NCBI GenBank assembly: GCA_021736785.1 | Contig: JAIPFF010000048.1 | Location: 1 to 42,655 of the forward strand | Length of the DNA stretch: 42,655 bases | Reading direction: 5' to 3' | Origin: Thiohalocapsa sp. | Lineage (GTDB): Bacteria; Pseudomonadota; Gammaproteobacteria; Chromatiales; Chromatiaceae | Part shown: positions 5,941-38,684 of the stretch, piece after piece | How positions within the stretch are numbered: the stretch's first letter is position 1 | Layout of the letters: every line of letters starts with the position of its first letter | The notes under the pieces: model-generated | What the model was told of the DNA's origin: nothing | What the model saw: the letters and a program-made list of their open reading frames with translations, nothing else | Database searches by the model: none | Position numbers and translations under genes: made by a program

Positions 5941-7233
5941 ATGCATATCGGCAAGCCCGCACCGCGGCGTCGGACCCTGGCCTGGGCATTTTACGACTGG
6001 GCCAATTCGGCGTTCGCCACGGTCGTCATCGCCGGCTTCTTTCCGGTGTTCTTTTCGCAGTTCTGGGCGGCGGACCTCCCGGACGCGAAGAGTACCCAAT
6101 GGCTCGGCTACGCGAGTAGCGCCGCCAGCCTCATCATCGTCTGCACCGCGCCGGCACTCGGCGCCCTCGCCGATCAACTGGGCGCGAAGAAGCGCTTCCT
6201 GCTCGGCTTCACGGTGTTGGGGGTGCTCTGCACGGGCGCGCTGTACTGGGTCGGGGCAGGGCATTGGCTCGCGGCCCTGCTGCTGTATCTGCTCGGGCTG
6301 CTGGGCTTTTTCGGCGGCAATATCTTCAACGACGCGCTGATCGTCGATGTCGCCGAGCCCGAGAATTACGAGCGTGCCTCGTCGCTGGCCTATGCGCTGG
6401 GCTATCTGGGCGGCGGCTTGTTGTTTGCCCTTAATGTCGTCATGGTGCTGACGCCGTCGAGCTTCGGTTTCGCCGATAAGGGCGAGGCGGTGCAGACGGC
6501 TTTTCTGCTATGCGCAATCTGGTGGGCGCTATTCTCGCTGCCGCTCGCCTTTCTCGTGCCGGAGACCGAGGGGGTCGGCAGCAAGCGGCTCGGCCGCGCA
6601 GTCCGCGATGCCTTCGCCGAGCTCGCCGGGACCCTGCGTGCCGTCCGCCGGCTGCCGAACACCTTCCTGTTCCTGATCGCCTACTGGTTCTATATCGACG
6701 GCGTCGACACCATCGTCTTCATGGCCGTCAAGTACGGACTCGATCTCGGCTTCAGCGATTCGAGCCTGATGGTCGCCTTGTTGGTCACCCAGTTCGTCGG
6801 CTTTCCGGCGGCACTCGCCTTCGGACGCCTCGGCGAGCGTTGGGGACCGAAGCCGGCCATCCTGCTCGCGATCGGCATTTACTGCGCCGTCGTATTGGCT
6901 GCAACGCAGATGCAGCGCGTGGAGCATTTCTATGCGCTGGCGGTTGCCATCGGCCTGGTGCAGGGTGGTATCCAGGCGCTGAGCCGCTCGCTATTCGCGA
7001 GCCTGGTACCCGACGGCCAGACCGCAGAGCTGTTCGGCTTCTACAACATGGTCGGTAAGTTCGCGGCCGTGCTCGGCCCGTTTCTCGTCGGCAGCACAGC
7101 GGCTTTGACCGGTGAGCCCAGGCTGTCGTTGCTGCCGGTCCTGTTTTTGTTCGCGATCGGGGCCATGCTGCTGTGGCGTGTGGATGTGGCGGCGGGGCGG
7201 GCGGCGGCAAAGGAAGCGGGCGAGGGGCACTGA
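5941..7233 (+). CDS. MFS transporter, UMF1 (Atg22-like) family
   Basis: A 430-aa polytopic inner-membrane protein of the major facilitator superfamily with about twelve hydrophobic segments. The N-terminal AWAFYDWANSAFATVV is the hallmark of the UMF1 (unknown major facilitator 1) family related to yeast Atg22, and the second-half motif LVQGGIQALSRSLFASLVP also fits. Atg22 exports amino acids from the vacuole; the substrate of bacterial members is not established. A GGGAG lies about ten bases before the ATG at 5941. The gene follows the response regulator by 61 bases on the same strand, so it may be co-transcribed. Confidence 0.92.
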   Translation: MHIGKPAPRRRTLAWAFYDWANSAFATVVIAGFFPVFFSQFWAADLPDAKSTQWLGYASSAASLIIVCTAPALGALADQLGAKKRFLLGFTVLGVLCTGALYWVGAGHWLAALLLYLLGLLGFFGGNIFNDALIVDVAEPENYERASSLAYALGYLGGGLLFALNVVMVLTPSSFGFADKGEAVQTAFLLCAIWWALFSLPLAFLVPETEGVGSKRLGRAVRDAFAELAGTLRAVRRLPNTFLFLIAYWFYIDGVDTIVFMAVKYGLDLGFSDSSLMVALLVTQFVGFPAALAFGRLGERWGPKPAILLAIGIYCAVVLAATQMQRVEHFYALAVAIGLVQGGIQALSRSLFASLVPDGQTAELFGFYNMVGKFAAVLGPFLVGSTAALTGEPRLSLLPVLFLFAIGAMLLWRVDVAAGRAAAKEAGEGH

Positions 7234-7234
7234 C

Positions 7235-7288
7235 GGGCGGTGCGGGTGCGGCTTTGTTCCGACAGCGGTCGGACAGTGCCCGCCCTTT
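7235..7288 (+). terminator. Candidate terminator downstream of UMF1 transporter
   Basis: An inner hairpin TCCGAC-AGCG-GTCGGA (7258-7273) sits inside an outer pairing GGGCGG (7235-7240) with CCGCCC (7280-7285), followed by TTT. It begins two bases after the transporter stop and lies between convergent genes. The outer stem has a long internal loop and the T tract is short, so this is moderate evidence only. Confidence 0.4.
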
Positions 7289-7434
7289 GCTTCGGATGCC
7301 GGTCTCGTCTGCGCGGCCGGAGGTCGGTGCCGCGGAGGACTGGCCCGGCGCGCCGATGACGAAGTGGCGTGCGCCGGGGGCGAACGGGCAGCGCGGAGCC
7401 GCCCGTCAGCGCTCGGCCGCTGCGGCCGGTGTCA

Positions 7435-7923
7435 TCAGCGCACTACATCGGTGATGCGCCACTGCCAATCCTGGAGTCTCATGATGACGTGCGTATCGTT
7501 GCCCGGGACGCCAAGGCGTATGACGAACCGATTCCAGGATTCGAAGAACGCGAAGTCGATGCCGGCCATAAAATAGGCGGGGCGCTCCTCTGTTGCCCGC
7601 GCCGCCGCGTCGCGCAGAGAGCCGTGCACCCATTCCAGCGTAATGGCCTGGTCCAAGGCACTGTCGCCGAGGCGCTGAAGATTGTCCGCGAGCCAGGCAA
7701 GGACGCGCTCGCCGTCGCTGTCGCCGCGGGGCATGAAGTCGCCCACCGCGCTGTCGAGCCGGGACTTGTAGGCGGCCTGCACGGCAGGTAGATCGACAAA
7801 GGGTGCGATGGCCTTCGCCGATGGTTGCGCCAGTGCGGTATCGAGTCGAAAGATCGTGTAATAAGGCCAGATGCCGTAACCGATGACGGCAAAAGCCAAC
7901 AGGTAGACAAGGATGCGGGCCAT
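7435..7923 (-). CDS. DUF2939-type membrane-anchored protein
   Basis: A 162-aa protein with a single N-terminal hydrophobic segment (ILVYLLAFAVIGYGIWPYY) followed by a soluble domain containing PFVDLPAVQAAYKSRL and ending FFESWNRFVIRL...WRITDVVR. This pattern (YxxxxRLDxAL after a TM anchor, then D-x-xxVRxSL/KxxL) matches the DUF2939 family of small envelope proteins without a defined role. The start at 7923 (MARILVY) puts the hydrophobic anchor at the N-terminus; longer upstream frames add only Arg-rich sequence. It is downstream of the BCCT gene on the same strand but separated by a terminator-like hairpin and 276 bases. Confidence 0.75.
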   Translation of the reverse strand: MARILVYLLAFAVIGYGIWPYYTIFRLDTALAQPSAKAIAPFVDLPAVQAAYKSRLDSAVGDFMPRGDSDGERVLAWLADNLQRLGDSALDQAITLEWVHGSLRDAAARATEERPAYFMAGIDFAFFESWNRFVIRLGVPGNDTHVIMRLQDWQWRITDVVR

Positions 7924-8167
7924 GTCGGACTCTCGAGAAGGGTCGTAGGATCGCGCCACGCATCGGCCGGCGCGCCGCCTGAGGGCTAGACAAGGTCTTC
8001 CTCTGGCGGGTTGAGCAAACGCAGCCCTATGGTAACGCGTTGCCGAACCTTCCGCGGGACAGCGATGCCCGGCGAACCGGTACCGGCATCGCCGAATCGC
8101 AGCAGCGCGCGCCCTGATCAAGCGTGCGGGCCGCGGCAGTACGTTCCGCGCTGCCGCGCCCGCGCCG

Positions 8168-8192
8168 AAAACGGCCGCACGACTTGCGGCCG
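8168..8192 (-). terminator. Rho-independent terminator of the BCCT gene
   Basis: An eight-base-pair GC stem (CGGCCGCA with TGCGGCCG, loop CGACT, 8172-8192) begins eight bases after the BCCT stop. On the minus strand it is followed by GTTTTCGG (T run complementary to 8168-8171). Stem strength and placement are good; the T run is short. Confidence 0.6.
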
Positions 8193-8199
8193 GCGGGCA

Positions 8200-9801
8200 T
8201 CAGGCCGTCTTGACCGATGCCTTCGCCAATCCCGCGTCCTTACCGAGCACGTAACGCCGTTCGTGATCCAGGCCCATATACAGGGCAACGCACATCGCCA
8301 GCAGAATCAGCGTGAAGGGCAGGCCGACAGTGATCGCCGCCGCCTGCAGCGCCCCCAGCGCATCCGCGCCGCCGCCGAACAGCAGCGCGCCGGCAATGAG
8401 GCCTTCCATGGTTGCCCAGAACACGCGCTGAGGCACCGGCGCGTCGAGCTTGCCGCCGGCGGTGATGCTGTCGATGACCAGCGAGCCGGAATCCGACGAG
8501 GTGATGAAGAACACCAGCACCAGCACGATCGCCAGGCTGGAGGTCACTGTCGCCAGGGGCAGGTTCTCCAGCATCTGGAACAGGGCCAGCGACACCTCGC
8601 CGATGCCGTTGGCGAGCTCGCCGACGCCGGCCTGCATCTGGGTCAGGCCGCCGCCGCCGAAGGCGCTCATCCAGACCAGCGTCACCAGTGTCGGCACCAG
8701 CAGCACGGCGACGATGAACTGACGCACCGTCCGGCCCTTGGAGACGCGGGCGATGAACATGCCGACGAACGGCGACCAGGAGATCCACCAGGCCCAGTAG
8801 AACACCGTCCAGCCATGGTAGAAGTTGTCGTCCTCGCGGCCTATCCAGTTGCTGAGCGGGATCAGGTTTTCGCCATAGGCCATGGCGGTGCGTCCCACTT
8901 CGCTGAAGATGCCAAGGCCAGCGCCGACGGCGATCACGAACAGCAGCAGCGCCAGCGCCAATATCATGTTGATGTTGCTGAGCAGCTTTACGCCGCCGTC
9001 GAGTCCGCGCATGACCGAGATGATGGCCACCGCCGTCACGCCCACGATGATCGCGATCTGGGTGTTGATGGTGTTGGGCAGGCCGAATAGGTAGCTGAGG
9101 CCGCCCGCCGCCTGCTGCGCACCGAAGCCGAGCGACGTGGCCAAGCCGAAGATCGTCGCCATGACCGCGACGACGTCGATGACATGGCCGAACCAGCCCC
9201 AGGAGCGATCCTTCAGAAACGGAAAGAAGGCCGAGCGGATGGTCAGCGGCAGGCCCTTGTTGTATGCGAAGAAGGCGAGCGACAGGGCAACGACGGCGTA
9301 GATGGCCCAAGGATGCAGGCCCCAGTGGAACATGGTCGCGCCCATGGCCATGTCGGCGGCCTCGGCGGTGCCCGCCTCGACGTTCAGCGGCGTGCCGTAC
9401 CAGTCGCTGAAGTAGGCCGCCGGCTCGGCCACGCTCCAGAACATCAGGCCGATGCCCATACCGGCCGCGAACAGCATCGCGAACCACGACAGCAGTCCGA
9501 ACTCCGGCTTGGCGTCGACGCCGCCGAGGCGGATGCTGCCCACCGGCAGGACGACGAGCAACAGGCAGAACACCACGAAGATGTTGCCCGCCACCAGGAA
9601 GAACCAGTCGAAGTTCGCGATGGACCAGGCCTTGGAGCTGTCGAAGGCCTGCTTGGACTCGCCGGGGAAGAGCAGTGTGCCGATGACGAACACCAGCACC
9701 AGCACGCTCGAGACAACGAAGACCGGATTGTGCATGTCCATGCCCCAGGCACGGATATTGTCTTGTCCGATCTCGTAATCGGTATCGTAACGATTCGGCA
9801 T
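8200..9801 (-). CDS. BCCT family transporter, glycine-betaine type
   Basis: A 533-aa carrier of the betaine/choline/carnitine family with about twelve transmembrane segments. The family signature AWWISWSPFVGMFIARVSKG is present; its Trp residues correspond to the aromatic box that binds quaternary ammonium in BetP. The GMGIGLMFWSVAEP segment in helix 3 has the Met-Gly-Ile-Gly pattern of sodium-coupled betaine carriers rather than that of the sodium-independent CaiT. The N-terminus is short and the C-terminal tail (HERRYVLGKDAGLAKAS) is modest, so strong BetP-like osmosensing by the tail is not obvious. An AAGGAA lies eight bases before the ATG at 9801. The expected role is sodium-driven uptake of glycine betaine or a relative for osmoprotection, fitting a salt-adapted host. 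Exact substrate is inferred. Confidence 0.93.
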   Translation of the reverse strand: MPNRYDTDYEIGQDNIRAWGMDMHNPVFVVSSVLVLVFVIGTLLFPGESKQAFDSSKAWSIANFDWFFLVAGNIFVVFCLLLVVLPVGSIRLGGVDAKPEFGLLSWFAMLFAAGMGIGLMFWSVAEPAAYFSDWYGTPLNVEAGTAEAADMAMGATMFHWGLHPWAIYAVVALSLAFFAYNKGLPLTIRSAFFPFLKDRSWGWFGHVIDVVAVMATIFGLATSLGFGAQQAAGGLSYLFGLPNTINTQIAIIVGVTAVAIISVMRGLDGGVKLLSNINMILALALLLFVIAVGAGLGIFSEVGRTAMAYGENLIPLSNWIGREDDNFYHGWTVFYWAWWISWSPFVGMFIARVSKGRTVRQFIVAVLLVPTLVTLVWMSAFGGGGLTQMQAGVGELANGIGEVSLALFQMLENLPLATVTSSLAIVLVLVFFITSSDSGSLVIDSITAGGKLDAPVPQRVFWATMEGLIAGALLFGGGADALGALQAAAITVGLPFTLILLAMCVALYMGLDHERRYVLGKDAGLAKASVKTA

Positions 9802-28732: not shown

Positions 28733-29194
28733 TTAGTGCTCGGAAGTGCCAAAAATCGATTTCGAGACGGCGCCGGATGCCGCGTCCGCGAGACGCTCAT
28801 CGAGCGCCTTGATCGCGTCGGCGATATCGGCGTGCTGGGTGCGCAGAATTTGCGGGACCACGTCCACCTCGATCTGCAGCGCGACGCGCTGCGCGTCGGC
28901 GTTGGCGTAGTCCACGACCCAGACTCCGGAAAAACGGGTTTCCCAGACCTGCGTCGGCCCGAGGGCATCGACGGTGGCTTCCACCTCGCCGCGGCCGAGC
29001 AATTCCAGCAGCCGGGCTTCGTCGCCGGGGCCGAAAGGGATTGCCGCAAGGTCGATCTGCGATGGCTCGCCGGTCTCGTTGAGTCTGCCTAGCGCGTGGC
29101 GTATCTCGTTCAGGATCGGCAGCGCGTTGCCGAAGTCGGCACCGGTCTGCGGAGGGGACTCGACACGGATCGGAATATCGTCTAGCGAAGGCAT
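28733..29194 (-). CDS. HupH/HyaF C-terminal-domain protein (hydrogenase expression/formation)
   Basis: A 153-aa protein resembling the C-terminal domain of HupH/HyaF: ALPILNEIRHALGRLNETGE, IDLAAIPFGPGDEARLLELLG, VEATVDALGPTQVWETRFSG and VWVVDYAN (the last blocks, WE-TxFxGVW, are the family signature). Full-length HyaF/HupH has about 280 residues, so this is a single-domain form. The family helps fit Fe-S clusters into, or mature, the small subunit. It sits eleven bases upstream of hynS in the same transcript. ATG at 29194 is used; a short upstream extension to 29221 is non-conserved. Confidence 0.85.
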   Translation of the reverse strand: MPSLDDIPIRVESPPQTGADFGNALPILNEIRHALGRLNETGEPSQIDLAAIPFGPGDEARLLELLGRGEVEATVDALGPTQVWETRFSGVWVVDYANADAQRVALQIEVDVVPQILRTQHADIADAIKALDERLADAASGAVSKSIFGTSEH

Positions 29195-29350
29195 GGTTAA
29201 CCTCGAAATCGCTGAAGACAAGTTTATGCTTATCTGATGAATTAGTTGTTGACTTGGGGCACAAACCCTTGAAAGTCGGTGACGAATGTCAATCGAACGG
29301 TGTTTTTCGCCATCCCGATCACCCCGGGGTGGCGTCGCGGAAGGGACTGC
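29195..29350 (-). promoter_or_regulatory. AT-rich intergenic region before the HupH-like/hynS genes
   Basis: This 156-base gap holds one of the most AT-rich stretches of the window (29205-29255). Read on the minus strand it has a perfect 12-bp palindrome CACCCCGGGGTG (29320-29331) and an exact TTGACA (complement of 29287-29292), but no matching -10 at 16-18 bases. A regulated promoter for the structural genes is likely; its sigma factor cannot be assigned. It may also be just a leader within a longer transcript from hynD. Confidence 0.4.
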
Positions 29351-29836
29351 TCAGGCGTCGTCTTCGGCTTGCCAGCGCCTGAGCAGCGTCGTGATCTCGG
29401 CGACCGCGCGGGGCACGGCGGCGGCCACTGCCGGGGTCAAGGTTTCGCCCCAGTCGACGCGCTCGGGCTCGATGCCGACCAGCGCGCGCTGCCGCGGCAT
29501 GCTATCGGTCAGGCGTGCGATGTCCATCAGGTCGGCTAGGCTGACTTCATGCACGCTCTTCGCGTTGCGGCTGAGCTGATCGTCCATCGCCACCCCTTCG
29601 AAGACCCGCACGGAGCCGGCTGGCTCGTCCATCACGGCAGCATCGACGACGATCAGGCGCGACGCGTCGGCGATGGGGCCGGCGAGTGTGAAGCTGAGCG
29701 TGCCGCCGTCGAGCAGCATCAGCGACGGGTCCGCGGCCGCCGTGGGCTCCAGCGCTTTCAGCACCGCGACGCCTGCGGCCTCGTCGGTGAGCAGGACATT
29801 GCCGAGGCCGAGGATCAACGTGACGGGGGCGGTCAT
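29351..29836 (-). CDS. hynD: Hydrogenase maturation endopeptidase
   Basis: A 161-aa HyaD/HybD/HupD-family protease that cleaves the C-terminal peptide of the large subunit once nickel is in place. The family opening LILGLGNVLLTDEAAGV carries the acidic metal ligand, LIVVDAAVMDEPAGSVRVF the second Asp and SVHEVSLADLM the His, matching the three Ni-sensing ligands of HybD. The likely substrate is the 15-residue tail of HynL encoded downstream. AGGAG lies about eight bases before ATG 29836. It heads the minus-strand hydrogenase gene group and is divergent from hypC. Confidence 0.94.
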   Translation of the reverse strand: MTAPVTLILGLGNVLLTDEAAGVAVLKALEPTAAADPSLMLLDGGTLSFTLAGPIADASRLIVVDAAVMDEPAGSVRVFEGVAMDDQLSRNAKSVHEVSLADLMDIARLTDSMPRQRALVGIEPERVDWGETLTPAVAAAVPRAVAEITTLLRRWQAEDDA

Positions 29837-29925
29837 CGCGCGCGCTCCTGGTGTGGCTTGCGGGTCGTGCCGTGCGCGCCGTAAGCTGCGGGCTTTACCG
29901 GCGGGCTTCTGCGGAGAACGGCGAC

Positions 29926-30204
29926 ATGTGCATGGGTATCCCGATGCGGATCACGCGGATCGACGGACTGATGGCCCGTTGCGAGGCGAAAGGCGTCGAG
30001 CGCGATGCGAGCCTGCTGATGCTCGAGCACGAACAATTGCAGGTGGGAGACTATGTCGTCGTGCATCTCGGCCATGCGATCGATCGCGTCACGCCCGAGC
30101 AGGCGGCCGATGCATGGGCCATCTACGACGAGATGCTGGCTGCGGATGCGGCGGTCGCCGCCGAATCCGGGGCAGGCCGAGGGTTCGGCGGCGGGAATGG
30201 CTGA
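29926..30204 (+). CDS. hypC: HypC/HupF family hydrogenase chaperone
   Basis: A 92-aa protein beginning MCMGIPMRI, where Cys2 is the residue through which HypC-type chaperones hold the Fe(CN)2CO unit and the large-subunit precursor. The rest (LQVGDYVVVHLGHAIDRVTP and AADAWAIYDEML) is the OB-fold HypC pattern. A Gly/Ala-rich tail of about 15 residues follows. It is alone on the plus strand, divergent from hynD by 89 bases. No hypA, B, D, E or F occurs in the window, so either those lie elsewhere or this is an enzyme-specific HupF/HybG-like chaperone. GGAG precedes the ATG by nine bases. Confidence 0.93.
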   Translation: MCMGIPMRITRIDGLMARCEAKGVERDASLLMLEHEQLQVGDYVVVHLGHAIDRVTPEQAADAWAIYDEMLAADAAVAAESGAGRGFGGGNG

Positions 30205-30710: not shown

Positions 30711-31121
30711 GTTTTGGGGCCTCTCTGCGGGTGTAAGGACGCGATGGGGTCGCCTCGCCGCTCGGGACGCGACTGTCCCGTTCCTGTCGCGAGCGCCGGT
30801 CTGCGCTGACGGGGGAGACCGTTCGCGCCGGCACCGGTGCATGCGGATCGCAGCCGGTGCGGCGTCCATCGATCGCGTCTTCGGCGCCGCGGTGCTCGTC
30901 GACGACCGGTCCGCGGGTACTGCGGGCCTCGATCGATAACTATCGGTCTACAATGGCAACGGGCGCATTGACGTGCATCAGCGCAGGCGCACGGCGACGT
31001 CGACGGCGCTCCGCGCGGCCGCCGTGCCGCCGAAAGCCTCGCTACGAGGCGACACCGGCCCGCGACTCGCCGATCGGCAGCGATGGCCTGCATCAAGAAC
31101 CAACAGAGCATCACTTCGGCT
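30711..31121. other. 411-base intergenic region
   Basis: The gap lies between the divergent 154-aa gene and ppsR. No coding frame is convincing. TACAAT at 30949-30954 is a five-of-six -10 match on the plus strand that could serve ppsR, though no good -35 stands 17 bases upstream. Nothing else was recognised. Confidence 0.4.
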
Positions 31122-31934
31122 ATGAAGCGCACCGTCTATTTCGTGTCCGAGAGCACCGGCATTACGGCCGAGGCCTTGGGGCATAGTCTGTTGTCTCAGT
31201 TCGACACCGTCGAGTTCGAGCAGGTCTACATGCCCTACATCAACAGCGAGCTGCGCGCCGAGGCGCTGACGCAGCGCATGCAGGAGGCCTATCTGCGCGA
31301 CGGCGCGCGGCCGATCGTCTTCGCCACTATGCTGAACGAGCGCATCGGGGCGATCCTGAAATCCGGTCATTGCTTCTACATGGAGCTCTTCGAGCAGTTC
31401 GCGGAGCCGCTCGGCGCCGAGCTCGGCGTGCCGCCGAGCCGCGAGTCGGGGCGCAGTCACGCGATCACCAAACCCAGCTCCTATACCAAGCGTATCGAGG
31501 CCATCAATTTCGCGATGGCAAACGACGACGGTGTGCGACCGGACAATTTCCGCCATGCCGATGTGGTGTTGGTGGGGGTGTCGCGCTCCGGCAAGACACC
31601 GACCTGCCTCTATCTGGCCATGCATTACGGGCTGCGCTCGGCCAACTATCCGATCACGGAGGAGGACTTCGAGCGCGGCGAGCTACCGCCGGAGATCTGG
31701 TCGGACAAGGACAAGATGTTCGGTCTTACCATCGATCCGCAGCGCCTGCAGGCCATTCGCGAGGAGCGCCGCCCCGGCAGCGAGTATGCGTCCGCGGCCC
31801 GCTGCCAGGCGGACATCCGCAATGCGCACAGCATGTTCAAGCGCCTCGGGGTACCGGTTCTGAACACCACCAGCCAGTCCATCGAGGAGATCTCTTCGCA
31901 GATCCTGCGCTCGCTGAAGACGCCGGTGGTGTGA
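31122..31934 (+). CDS. ppsR: Pyruvate, water dikinase (PEP synthase) regulatory protein
   Basis: A 270-aa bifunctional regulator (DUF299/PSRP family) that inactivates PEP synthase by ADP-dependent phosphorylation of its threonine and reactivates it by phosphate-dependent dephosphorylation. Family motifs are MKRTVYFVSESTGITAEALG at the N-terminus, the P-loop VGVSRSGKTPTCLYLA, then RSANYPITEED and FGLTIDPQRLQAIREER (split blocks), ending IEEISSQIL. The length equals the family norm if the ATG at 31122 is used; an upstream in-frame ATG at 31083 adds 13 non-conserved residues. The pps gene itself is not in the window. Confidence 0.96.
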   Translation: MKRTVYFVSESTGITAEALGHSLLSQFDTVEFEQVYMPYINSELRAEALTQRMQEAYLRDGARPIVFATMLNERIGAILKSGHCFYMELFEQFAEPLGAELGVPPSRESGRSHAITKPSSYTKRIEAINFAMANDDGVRPDNFRHADVVLVGVSRSGKTPTCLYLAMHYGLRSANYPITEEDFERGELPPEIWSDKDKMFGLTIDPQRLQAIREERRPGSEYASAARCQADIRNAHSMFKRLGVPVLNTTSQSIEEISSQILRSLKTPVV

Positions 31935-32192: not shown

Positions 32193-32330
32193 TACCGGCC
32201 ATGTCGGTATGGCTTCGGGTGCGCGCGCCACGGACGTGCGCCGTGAACGGCATCGGCAGCGTTATGCGGTCGCTTCTCGGCAGGGAGGGTGGCGGCCAGG
32301 CCGGCAGGCAGGTCGGCGAGGCGGGGCGAC

Positions 32331-34295
32331 ATGAAGCCTCTGCATGCACCGCCGTGCGAAGGCCGGTTTCTGCCCATGGATCCGTCTTGGGTCGCGGATG
32401 GGCCGCTGCGGCAGCATCGCCGCGTGCTGCTGCTCGGCCCGCCCGGCAGCGGCAAGACCACGCTGGCTCGCCGGCTGGCCGCCCTGCTCGGCGCCGCTGG
32501 CCGCTCGGTATGGGGCATCGGCGCCGATCCGGGGCAGCCCGGCTTCGGCGTGCCGGGTGCCGTGTGCTTGGCTGAGTGGCGCGATGACGGCTGGTCGCTT
32601 GCGGCGCTGCAGGCCCTTTGCACGCTCGATGCGGCGCGATTTCGATTGCCGCTGTCCTCGGCGGTGGCCGCTCTGTCGGCGCGCGCCGGCGAAGGCGTGC
32701 TGCTGCTCGACGCGCCGGGCGTCGTGCGCGGCGTGGCCGGCGCCGAGCTGCTGGACGCGTTGGTTGCTGCCGGCGCGATCGACTTGATCCTGGTGCTGGC
32801 CGACCGGGAACAACCGCCGCGTTTGGCGGCGGAGCTTGCCGCTAGCGCTGCCGAAGTCATTTGCCTGCAGCGCGCACCGCAGGCGCGCCGTCCGGGCAAG
32901 CCGGCCCGGGCCCGCCGGCGCACGCTGCTGTGGGATGCGTATCTGGCGCAGAGCGCCGTGCACCGCCTCGCGCTGTCGGATCTCCATCTGACCGGCACCC
33001 CGCCGCGCCTGGCTGCCGAGGCCTGGTCTGGCAAGCAGGTGGCGTTTCCGGATGGCGGGCAGACGCTTTCCATGGGCGAGATCGTCGGCCTCGAAGGCGA
33101 CTATCTCGATGTGCGCCTGCCGGTCGGGGCGAGACCCGGGCCAACCCTGCTGGTGCGCGACGCCTGCCGCGACGCGAGCGGTCTGCTCGGCACATCACCG
33201 GGATTCGCGGCCGAGCACGTGCACTACGTACCTCCGGCGGATCTGCTGATCGCCGCCGGCGATGCCCCGGAACCCGGCCCGCGGCCAGTGGTGCGCGTCG
33301 GTGACGTTGCCGCCGCTCTCGTCAACGGTGTCTTCGGAGACCCCTTGTTGCATCTGCGCCTCAGCCATCGGCGGCGCAGCCTTTTGTTCGATCTCGGTGA
33401 TGGCGCCCGGCTGCCGACGCGCGTGATCCATCAGGTCACGGACGTCTTCATCACCCATGCCCATGCGGACCATATCGCCGGTTTTCTGTGGCTGCTGCGC
33501 TCGCGCATCGGCGAGCCCGGCGTCTGCCGATTTTACGGACCGCCGGGGCTGGCGGCGAATATCGCCGGCCTGGTTGCCGGCATCCTGTGGGATCGGATCG
33601 GCGACCGAGGTCCGCTGTTCGAGGTGGCCGAGGTGCACGGTGCGCTGCTGCGCCGGTTCGAGGTTCGCGGCGGCGGCGGTGCTCCGAAGCCGCTGCAGAC
33701 AAGGCAGGCGGCCGACGGGGTACTGTTGGCCGAGTCGGACTTTCGCGTGCGCTGCGTCGGACTGGATCACGGCGGCACGCCGGTGCTTGCCTTCGCTTAC
33801 GAGCCGGGGCGGCGGGTGAGGGTGCGAAAAGAACGCTTGAGCGCGCTCGGTCTGCCGCCCGGGCCCTGGCTGACCGACCTCAAACAGCGGATCCTGCGCG
33901 GCGAGCAGGACACCCTCGTCGATCTACCCGACGGCACGCGACGGCGCGTTGCGGCGCTGGCGGACGCACTCACATTGACCGAGCCCGGCCGCACGCTGGT
34001 GTACGCCACCGACTTCGGCGACAGCGCGGACAACCGTGCCCGATTGATGGCACTGGCAGCAGGAGCGGACACGCTCTTCTGCGAGGCCTGCTTTATGCAG
34101 GGCGACCGCGAGCAGGCACTGCGCACCGGCCACCTGACGACCGGCGCCTGCGGCGAGATCGCCACTGCCGCCGGAGTCCGTTTTCTGATTCCGTTCCATT
34201 TCTCGCGCCGCTACGAGCGGATACCGGAGCGCGTCTACGCGGAGATCGGTGCCGTTTGCCCGCAAGTCGTGGTGCCGAAAGCCGGGCCGCAGTAA
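32331..34295 (+). CDS. Fusion of Clp1/Grc3-like polynucleotide kinase domain and RNase Z-like MBL nuclease
   Basis: A 654-aa fusion. Residues about 25-200 form a P-loop domain: Walker A GPPGSGKTT (36-44), then GADPGQPGFGVPGAVCLAE (Asp66), the pattern that follows the P-loop in Clp1/Grc3/NOL9 5'-OH polynucleotide kinases, and a Walker-B-like VLLLDAPGVV. Residues about 200-320 are beta-rich (SMGEIVGLEGDYLDVRLPVG), resembling the C-terminal part of Clp1 proteins. Residues about 320-654 are an RNase Z-like metallo-beta-lactamase: HAHADH (376-381), LDHGGTP (His480), ATDFGD (Asp561), GHLTTG (His601) and FHFSRRY (His623), so all seven metal ligands of RNase Z have equivalents. Expected cytosolic, acting on RNA: cleavage plus 5'-end phosphorylation. 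I infer both activities; neither is proven. ATG 32331 is chosen over GTG 32289 for spacing. Confidence 0.85.
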   Translation: MKPLHAPPCEGRFLPMDPSWVADGPLRQHRRVLLLGPPGSGKTTLARRLAALLGAAGRSVWGIGADPGQPGFGVPGAVCLAEWRDDGWSLAALQALCTLDAARFRLPLSSAVAALSARAGEGVLLLDAPGVVRGVAGAELLDALVAAGAIDLILVLADREQPPRLAAELAASAAEVICLQRAPQARRPGKPARARRRTLLWDAYLAQSAVHRLALSDLHLTGTPPRLAAEAWSGKQVAFPDGGQTLSMGEIVGLEGDYLDVRLPVGARPGPTLLVRDACRDASGLLGTSPGFAAEHVHYVPPADLLIAAGDAPEPGPRPVVRVGDVAAALVNGVFGDPLLHLRLSHRRRSLLFDLGDGARLPTRVIHQVTDVFITHAHADHIAGFLWLLRSRIGEPGVCRFYGPPGLAANIAGLVAGILWDRIGDRGPLFEVAEVHGALLRRFEVRGGGGAPKPLQTRQAADGVLLAESDFRVRCVGLDHGGTPVLAFAYEPGRRVRVRKERLSALGLPPGPWLTDLKQRILRGEQDTLVDLPDGTRRRVAALADALTLTEPGRTLVYATDFGDSADNRARLMALAAGADTLFCEACFMQGDREQALRTGHLTTGACGEIATAAGVRFLIPFHFSRRYERIPERVYAEIGAVCPQVVVPKAGPQ

Positions 34296-35799: not shown

Positions 35800-36891
35800 A
35801 TGAAGCTCGGAATCCCGAAAGAGACACTCGGCGGGGAGCGACGTGTCGCGACCACGCCGGAGGTGGCGAAGAAGCTCGTCGGCAAGGGCTTCGAAGTGCT
35901 GCTGGAACCCGGTGCCGGCGTCGCCGCACACTACACCGACGACGACTATGCCGCGGTCGGTGTGCAGCTCGCCGAGCGCGCCGCCTGCTTCGAGGCGGAT
36001 ATCGTGCTGAAGGTGCGCCGGCCCGGCGACGACGAGGCCGCGGCCCTGCGCGCCGGAGCGATCTACATCAGCCTGCTCGAGAGCTGCGGCGATGACCCCT
36101 TGGTGGCGCGCATGCTGGAGAAGGGGGTGCGTGTCATGGGCATGGAGCGCATGCCGCGCATCTCCCGTGCGCAGTCCATGGATGCCTTGTCCTCGCAGAG
36201 CAATATCGCCGGCTATCGCGCCGTGATCGAGGCCGCGTCGCAGTACGGGCGCTTTTTCCCGATGATGATGACCTCGGCCGGATCGGCCAAGCCGGCTCGC
36301 TTGGTCGTGCTCGGTGCCGGCGTCGCGGGTCTGCAGGCAATCGCCACGGCCCGGCGTCTCGGTGCCGACGTCTATGCCTACGACGTGCGCCCCGAGACCA
36401 AGGAGCAGATCCAATCCCTTGGCGCCAAGCCCATCGAGCTCGACCTGGGCGAGAGCGGTGCCGGCGAAGGGGGCTACGCCAAAGAGCTCTCGGACGAGGC
36501 CAAAGCCCGTCAGCAGGAGCTGCTGGCCAAAGAATTGGCCAAGGCCCACGTCATCATCACGACGGCATTGATCCCTTGCCGGCCCGCGCCGGAGCTGATC
36601 ACTGCCGACGTCGTGCAGCGCATGCGGGAGGGCTCTGTAATCGTCGACCTGGCCGCGGCCAACGGCGGCAACTGCAAGCTGACCCGGCCGGACCAGGTCG
36701 TCGTCGAGCACGGCGTGACCATCGTCGGCCACACCAACTATCCGTCTATGGTGCCGGCGGATGCGAGCGCGTTCTACGCCAAGAACCTGTCCAACCTGCT
36801 CGAGATCATGGTGGACCAGACCGAGGCCGGACCTGTCCTGAAGGATCTGGCAGAGGACGAGATCACCAAGGCGATGCTGGTTCAGGCCTGA
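35800..36891 (+). CDS. pntAA: NAD(P) transhydrogenase subunit alpha, part 1 (NAD domain)
   Basis: A 363-aa domain I protein of the proton-translocating transhydrogenase, which binds NAD(H) on the cytoplasmic side. Conserved blocks are [20 protein letters not shown], the mobile loop region, [20 protein letters not shown] (Rossmann fold) and the terminal [14 protein letters not shown]. The alpha subunit is split (separate membrane part), as in Rhodospirillum rubrum and many Proteobacteria, unlike the fused E. coli PntA (510 aa). First gene of pntAA-pntAB-pntB. Confidence 0.97.
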
Positions 36892-36980
36892 GTGCATCCA
36901 GCCCGACCGGGGTGGACCGGCGGCGGCGCCGGACTTTTCCCGACAGATCAACGAATCGACTCATCACGGGGGCGCTCCCG

Positions 36981-37265
36981 ATGTCCGAATCCATCCTCGC
37001 ACTCTATGTCTTCGTACTGGCCTGCTTTATCGGCTACTACGTCATTTGGGGCGTTACGCCGTCCCTGCACACGCCGCTGGTGGCCTTGACCAACGCCATT
37101 TCGGGTATCGTGCTGGTCGGTGCGCTGCTGGTCACCGGCCTCGAGGAAGCCGGCTTCCTGGCCTCGGGCATGGGCTTTTTGGCGGTGCTGCTGGCCAGCA
37201 TCAACGTCTTCGGCGGCTTTCTGGTCACGCACCGGATGCTGTCGATGTTCAAGAAGAAGAAATAA
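36981..37265 (+). CDS. pntAB: NAD(P) transhydrogenase subunit alpha, part 2 (membrane)
   Basis: A 94-aa membrane protein with three hydrophobic helices ([51 protein letters not shown]) and the conserved [12 protein letters not shown] and [12 protein letters not shown] ends. It contributes to the proton-conducting dII part. It lies 89 bases after pntAA and 12 bases before pntB, in the same operon. Confidence 0.96.
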
Positions 37266-37277
37266 GGACCGCGCTCC

Positions 37278-38684
<1,407 letters not shown>

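Follow-up and report, generated by a model that had tools for sequence, protein, structure and literature searches.

In eukaryotes, the Las1-Grc3 and TSEN-CLP1 systems let a Clp1/Grc3-type domain work with an RNA nuclease, and in this they resemble the protein described here. Their nuclease is, however, a separate subunit that leaves a 5´-OH, whereas ours is of the RNase Z type, sits in the same chain and would leave a 5´-phosphate; Las1 and the TSEN nucleases have other folds (HEPN or TSEN) than RNase Z. A further likeness, drawn from general knowledge, is to mRNA 3´ processing, in which Clp1 is paired with CPSF73, a nuclease of the metallo-beta-lactamase fold. CPSF73 belongs to the beta-CASP enzymes and works within a large complex, and yeast Clp1 acts in the mRNA cleavage complex.

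To our knowledge, no role has been established for Clp1 proteins in bacteria. According to the accessible part of a survey (PMC6777427), the family occurs in 0.9% of complete bacterial genomes and its bacterial members measure 333 +/- 74 aa. The same part of this source describes Clp1 from Thermus scotoductus (Saito 2019, PMC6777427), like our protein a bacterial CLP1_P protein with a Walker A motif, a catalytic Asp and a lid-type Arg; it has no extra N- or C-terminal domain and a conserved clasp, whereas the fusion lacks the clasp Trp and continues into an RNase Z domain. On the nuclease side, the nearest relatives found are standalone members of PRK02126 (NF002558), which have the same metal ligands and GP arm. 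The fusions, however, score below the cut-off of this family and make up a clade of their own, on a long stem.

The gene analysed here lies on contig JAIPFF010000048.1 of Thiohalocapsa sp. (GCA_021736785.1). All positions are those of its forward strand, 1 to 42,655, and this whole stretch is called the window. The encoded protein is a conserved fusion of two domains in one chain. No description of a Clp1-RNase Z fusion was found in the literature searched, which was covered mostly by title and beginning of abstract and left most subscription papers outside; the accessible part of the main text of PMC6777427 contains none of the words lactamase, ribonuclease and fused. The parts belong to known families, and it is the combination, its conservation and its association with RtcB that appear to be new. 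The fusion suggests that bacteria handle RNA ends in a way not yet described and parallels, in minimal form and within one chain, the partnership of Clp1/Grc3 with nucleases in eukaryotes. Taken together with a clp1-rnz pair of separate genes and the company of RtcB and archease, the fusion with a putative tRNA nuclease provides a testable clue to the function of bacterial Clp1.

Domains and motifs of the fusion protein

An earlier note on this DNA, made from the letters alone, had proposed a kinase and an RNase Z-like nuclease in a single reading frame, and this frame is present with both domains in it (Table 1). The start follows that note (ATG 32331); an in-frame GTG upstream, at 32289, is a possible alternative.

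Table 1. Positions of the fusion gene and of its features in the window
Feature	Residues	Position	Strand	Basis or remark
Fusion gene, Clp1-like/RNase Z	654 aa	32331..34295	+	open reading frame, Pfam and NCBIfam matches
Walker A, GPPGSGKT	36-43	32436..32459	+	G36, G41, K42 in 29/30 rows, gap in 1
Walker B-type block, DPGQ	66-69	32526..32537	+	Asp66, Gly68 30/30; Gln69 window copy only
CTLDAARFRLPL	97-108	32619..32654	+	fusion-specific, in the place of SPxGHxLP of separate Clp1
Clasp equivalent, APGV	128-131	32712..32723	+	[T/S/L]xGW in known Clp1
Lid equivalent, R193..R197-T-..-W201		32907..32933	+	invariant, 30/30 fusion rows
Linker	292-319	33204..33287	+	pLDDT < 50
RNase Z-like metallo-beta-lactamase domain	~327-650	33309..34280	+	1y44 alignment, NCBIfam, Foldseek
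Metal-binding motif, HAHADH	376-381	33456..33473	+	aligned with 1y44; conserved
His480, metal ligand	480	33768..33770	+	aligned with 1y44; conserved
GP motif region, LPPGPW		33852..33869	+	aligned with NIPPGPV of 1y44
Asp561, metal ligand	561	34011..34013	+	aligned with 1y44; conserved
His601	601	34131..34133	+	equivalent of His in HST block of 1y44
HFSRRY including His623		34197..34214	+	aligned with 1y44; conserved

Both domain identities are supported. The first half of the window protein matches CLP1_P of Pfam with 58.5 bits (cut-off 26.6), and a profile of 12 rows, three of them separate Clp1 proteins, matches Clp1, Grc3 and NOL9 chains. The note had named a general GTPase or ATPase such as CobW or ArsA as the identity that would speak against a Clp1/Grc3 domain. 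Most other P-loop families match the Walker A strip alone (about residues 26-70), mostly below cut-off, with MeaB reaching residue 128; since Clp1 is matched over much of the N-terminal domain, we rejected a generic P-loop identity. A defence system was also considered and dropped, PADLOC giving three weak P-loop strip matches. The second half matches Lactamase_B_2 (Pfam), and the RNase Z models of NCBIfam match strongly though below their cut-offs: NF002558, the PRK02126 subfamily, with 270 bits (cut-off 315) over residues 327-647, nearly the whole model, and the equivalog TIGR02651 with 97 bits (cut-off 293). Because both scores are below cut-off, this half is classed as RNase Z-like and as a member of neither family. 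The best solved relative by sequence is RNase Z of B. subtilis (1y44, E 7e-15).

A structure was predicted with AlphaFold2 from the window protein and 15 relatives. The model has a mean pLDDT of 79.4 and a pTM of 0.53, so that the orientation of the two domains to each other is not fixed by it. In line with the domain assignment, Foldseek placed an RNase Z-tRNA complex first (2fk6, E 1.1e-18, target TM 0.79), followed by human CLP1 (8hmy_E, E 1.9e-13), C. elegans Clp1 with RNA (4oi0, E 2.1e-12) and Grc3 from a Las1-Grc3 structure (8puw, E 4.8e-10).

All seven metal ligands that had been proposed (His376, His378, Asp380, His381, His480, Asp561 and His623) align with the same residues of 1y44, and the proposed HFSxRY motif is found as HFSRRY. 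These seven residues and His601 are kept in 31/31 fusion rows and in 20/20 rows of RNase Z standing alone, 18 of which are truly separate, the other two being the fusion clade members L017 and L018. The GP motif, which we take to be part of the tRNA-binding arm of RNase Z, is retained as well, with Gly511 in all 31 fusion rows and Pro512 in 30. The ligands of the C-terminal half are thus intact, and its nuclease activity is predicted.

The N-terminal half is less regular. Counts for this domain refer to 30 rows including the window copy; L012, L013, L017, L018 and L140 are outside this set, and L011 is without the Walker A part. Walker A is present as the note had it. The DPGQ block, which it had regarded as typical of Clp1/Grc3 kinases, exists in the window copy, but position 69 is Gln in this copy alone and Ser in 22 of the 30 rows; DPGQ is therefore no feature of the family. 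Measured against the Walker B definition [D/E]hhQ (PMC6777427, accessible part), the fusions keep Asp66 (30/30) and have Gln69 once (1/30). The consensus CTLDAxRFRLPL stands where separate Clp1 proteins have SPxGHxLP. In the lid, R193xxxR197 is found in 30/30 rows, one residue shorter than RxxxxR of Clp1 kinases, and in the alignment this stretch falls on the lid region of the Clp1 proteins of human and worm.

The clasp, defined as [T/S/L]xGW in the accessible part of PMC6777427, has Gly130 in all 30 rows, but Trp at position 131 in none of them and Val in 25. Thus, we file the protein as a CLP1_P-domain protein rather than as a canonical Clp1/Grc3 kinase. In eukaryotic Clp1, inactive members tend to differ especially in the clasp (PMC10598085, accessible part), which counts against a kinase in the fusion. 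The separate Clp1 proteins of Gammaproteobacteria have TxGL here (3/3), so that a missing Trp alone is no proof of inactivity. The fusions thus seem to have an intact ATP site and a remodelled acceptor site. Of the proposed RNA kinase, the Clp1-type domain with its ATP site has held; its activity is less certain with the clasp Trp lost and a substrate-facing segment rewritten, and 5´-OH RNA kinase activity is no more than plausible.

Spread of the fusion and of its separate counterparts

A scan of genome contigs gave 17 related loci, with both halves in one open frame in 15 of them. L012 and L013 stop at contig edges; in L011, the Walker A part is missing from the open frame. Matches were obtained in 16 of 93 close genomes: seven with the fusion (our own included), three with the RNase Z half only and six with short strips only. 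The fusion was found in nine of 274 genomes of the class. From 398 genomes of the phylum 13 matched; four have the fusion in one frame (our own, G697, G375 and G464, the last two from another class), in G404 it is split over two contigs, and eight have the RNase Z half only. Two loci are from outside, L011 from a Desulfobacteraceae MAG and L014 from the delta proteobacterium NaphS2. The searches scored some first-look candidates per genome (at most 3 in the phylum; 7 and 11 in the class) and many genomes are drafts, so absences are soft.

Altogether, 31 distinct copies, including that of the window, have both halves in one frame. In a tree of 51 RNase Z domains, built with a quick method, these 31 fusions and L017 and L018 form one clade (SH-aLRT 100), which sits beside the separate PRK02126 enzymes on a long stem. 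For three pairs of relatives, dN/dS was 0.16-0.27 in the N-terminal and 0.10-0.34 in the C-terminal half; both halves are under purifying selection. The earlier note had reasoned that halves occurring only as separate genes in close relatives would indicate a sequencing error or a chance fusion. L017, which begins at a contig edge, and L018, with a frame change between its halves, are indeed not intact; however, with many relatives carrying both halves in one frame and forming a single clade, sequencing error, assembly join or chance fusion is refuted and retains practically no probability. A mobile element was considered too, but the matches in 17 of 72,556 plasmid and two of 50,697 phage records were in the RNase Z half only. 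The 1060-aa frame of L005 was not counted as protein, since the additional stretch at its upstream end lies antisense to a PGA_cap gene. In L024/L034 (genome G030), about 50 residues are inserted between the matched parts of the RNase Z half of the fusion.

The two halves also exist as separate genes. In G228, clp1 (L157 6153-7091 +) is followed after 79 bases by a PRK02126-type rnz (7171-8226 +), and the pair is flanked by opposite-strand genes on both sides. A convincing separate Clp1 was found in three genomes of the class (G228, G178 and G292), and all three have a separate PRK02126 RNase Z, which is present in 12 of 263 class genomes (the sample minus the nine fusion genomes and two with RNase Z fragments; p 7e-5); G178 and G292 are from the same genus, so there are only two independent cases, and their clp1 and rnz are on different contigs. 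Weak CLP1_P matches in G188 and G310 amount to short P-loop strips and were left out of the count. A separate PRK02126 RNase Z without Clp1 match was seen in nine class genomes. The phylum sample of 398, in which no separate Clp1 was found, contains six genomes where a separate RNase Z likewise comes without Clp1 match.

Computed, like all RtcB statistics here, without a species tree, RtcB was present in 20 of the 23 PRK02126-positive class genomes, fused or not and including two with fragments only (G119 and G195), versus 74 of the 251 others (p 8e-8). For fusions alone, the numbers are 8/9 versus 86/265 (p 0.001). The large RtcB type (above 540 bits in 57 class genomes) was counted by eye in 19/23 versus 38/251. 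A hand-picked set of 17 genomes had been searched first, with RtcB found in all of them, and the baseline of 274 was run afterwards; in G124, a fusion genome outside the 17, no RtcB was found, and G404 is outside the RtcB-searched set. Same-family contrasts are few: in family f1, RtcB is present in 6/6 fusion genomes versus 27/52 others (p 0.027), these others including G023, which has its RNase Z as a separate gene and is without RtcB; within one genus, G240 has fusion, RtcB and archease and G100 none of the three; within one family, G228 has the clp1-rnz pair, RtcB and archease and G083 none. Genomes that have a separate RNase Z and gave no Clp1 match at all show the RtcB link as well, and the link between RtcB and PRK02126 may reflect shared ancestry.

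Archease was found in 23 of 30 genomes (13/18 with fusions, 10/12 with separate RNase Z) versus 8 of 50 controls, two of the eight being fragments and the controls being low-numbered class genomes without PRK02126 match, chosen and not random. No archease match was obtained in the fusion genomes G016, G027, G033, G124 and G404; the RtcB of G016 and G027 is of the smaller type. The fusion and RtcB share a contig in one of 16 fusion genomes with RtcB, namely G109, in which a THUMP-RtcA-archease-RtcB row (L164 13597-17657 +) lies 8-12 kb from the fusion. Our own genome has an archease-RtcB gene pair (L163 5172-7247 -) on another contig than the fusion; near this pair, on the other strand, is a gene for a sigma-54-interacting PAS regulator.

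Possible roles in RNA end processing

An RNase Z cut leaves a 3´-OH on the tRNA and a 5´-phosphate on the trailer. The product of the nuclease half would thus already have a 5´-phosphate, and a kinase is not needed for it; if active, the kinase would have to use ends that other enzymes produce. RtcB seals ends in which a 5´-OH faces a 2´,3´-cyclic phosphate. We tentatively favour, with slightly less than an even chance, the view that this enzyme works on RNA ends and that its kinase half competes for 5´-OH ends with RtcB. The C-terminal half would be an RNase Z-type nuclease cutting next to tRNA-like acceptor stems, and the N-terminal half a divergent ATP-binding domain of the Clp1 family. Its most likely activity is to phosphorylate 5´-OH ends on tRNA or RNA pieces which other nucleases, and not the cut of the fusion itself, have made. 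Being fused would hold the N-terminal half near the same RNA as the nuclease. The protein would act on the same pool of 5´-OH and cyclic-phosphate ends that RtcB, often with archease, seals, and would tip RNA pieces from sealing towards trimming or decay.

The domain and fold matches, the intact metal ligands, the residues of the ATP site, the single clade, the dN/dS values, the gene pair of G228, the company of separate Clp1 and separate PRK02126 RNase Z in three class genomes and the co-occurrence with RtcB and archease speak for this reading. It is weakened by the loss of the clasp Trp (30/30) and of the Walker B Gln (29/30), the failure to find a conserved operon, the single genome of 16 with RtcB on the contig of the fusion, the fusion genomes in which RtcB or archease gave no match, the separate RNase Z and the RtcB link in genomes without Clp1 match and the domain orientation left unfixed by the model (pTM 0.53). 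In metazoa, phosphorylation by CLP1 takes away the substrate of RTCB, and in insect cells ligation rose when CLP1 was silenced (both from the accessible part of PMC13247085); on this ground we prefer an RNA-end enzyme that draws pieces away from sealing. In this reading, nuclease and kinase activity, the substrate and the competition with RtcB are all inferred.

The main rival is a non-kinase N-terminal half that binds ATP and RNA and serves as scaffold or switch for the RNase Z half, like yeast Clp1, which we regard as possible but rather unlikely. The clasp Trp is lost in 30/30 and the Walker B Gln in 29/30 rows while the Walker A Lys, Asp66 and the lid Arg remain, and inactive Clp1 proteins with clasp changes (PMC10598085) and a Sc-Clp1 without kinase activity (PMC6777427) have been described in the accessible parts of these sources. 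However, Asp66 and both lid arginines are invariant (30/30), and with TxGL in the separate gammaproteobacterial proteins the Trp may be dispensable in bacteria. It is improbable that the fusion is simply the tRNA 3´-maturation RNase Z of its lineage with an accessory N-terminal half. A separate rnz had been suggested as something to look for, and in its own genome the fusion is the one protein that matches the RNase Z model at its two ends, and the remaining matches are short; in addition, the GP motif of the tRNA arm is kept. Yet all 42 tRNA genes found in this genome encode CCA, so maturing CCA-less tRNA is not its role, and the N-terminal half is under purifying selection. The mechanism of the earlier note, in which the kinase phosphorylates ends cut by the nuclease of the same protein and thereby unites cut and 5´-phosphate addition, is in keeping with the fusion of both domains in one chain but fails on RNase Z chemistry, which gives a 5´-phosphate and a 3´-OH and makes no 5´-OH available; we consider it very improbable.

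Returning to competition with RtcB, a wider version of it is speculative and rather doubtful: in many Gammaproteobacteria, RtcB-archease sealing might be opposed by a one-chain Clp1-type kinase-RNase Z on broken or nicked tRNAs, with 5´-phosphorylation and acceptor-end trimming deciding between repair and destruction. If true, the handling of RNA ends in many Gammaproteobacteria would follow a pathway like that of archaea and eukaryotes.

Own genome and gene neighbourhood

As a possible second RNase Z of the genome (G000), a 328-aa frame on contig C66 was rejected; it has a signal-peptide-like start, matches RNase Z positions 2-90 only and was judged by eye to be a secreted hydrolase. Among the 42 tRNA genes no tRNA-Ile or tRNA-Trp was found, which we put down to the assembly in 96 contigs. 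A tRNA-Tyr/Gly/Thr cluster is located near the end of contig C72.

Clustering of open reading frames from 15 loci and the window, with the fusion gene and its shadow frames set aside, revealed no conserved operon, the groups comprising two or three loci at most. A PGA_cap-type gene is near the fusion in L002, L005 and L009 (the L005 copy alone was run against Pfam), and nitroreductases adjoin it in L004 and L011. EamA transporters are shared by L016 and L158, the fusions of which are close relatives. Pfam gave matches for 15 of 20 neighbour genes and none for five.

In the window, a kinase/pyrophosphorylase gene (PF03618, PpsR type; 31083-31934) lies upstream of the fusion on the same strand; in the clustering, none of the 15 other loci yielded a homologue of it. 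Hydrogenase maturation genes identified with Pfam are also nearby, HupH-like (28733-29221 -), HycI-type protease (29351-29836 -) and HypC-like (29851-30204 +), and genes for the alpha and beta subunits of NAD(P) transhydrogenase are located at 35800-38684.
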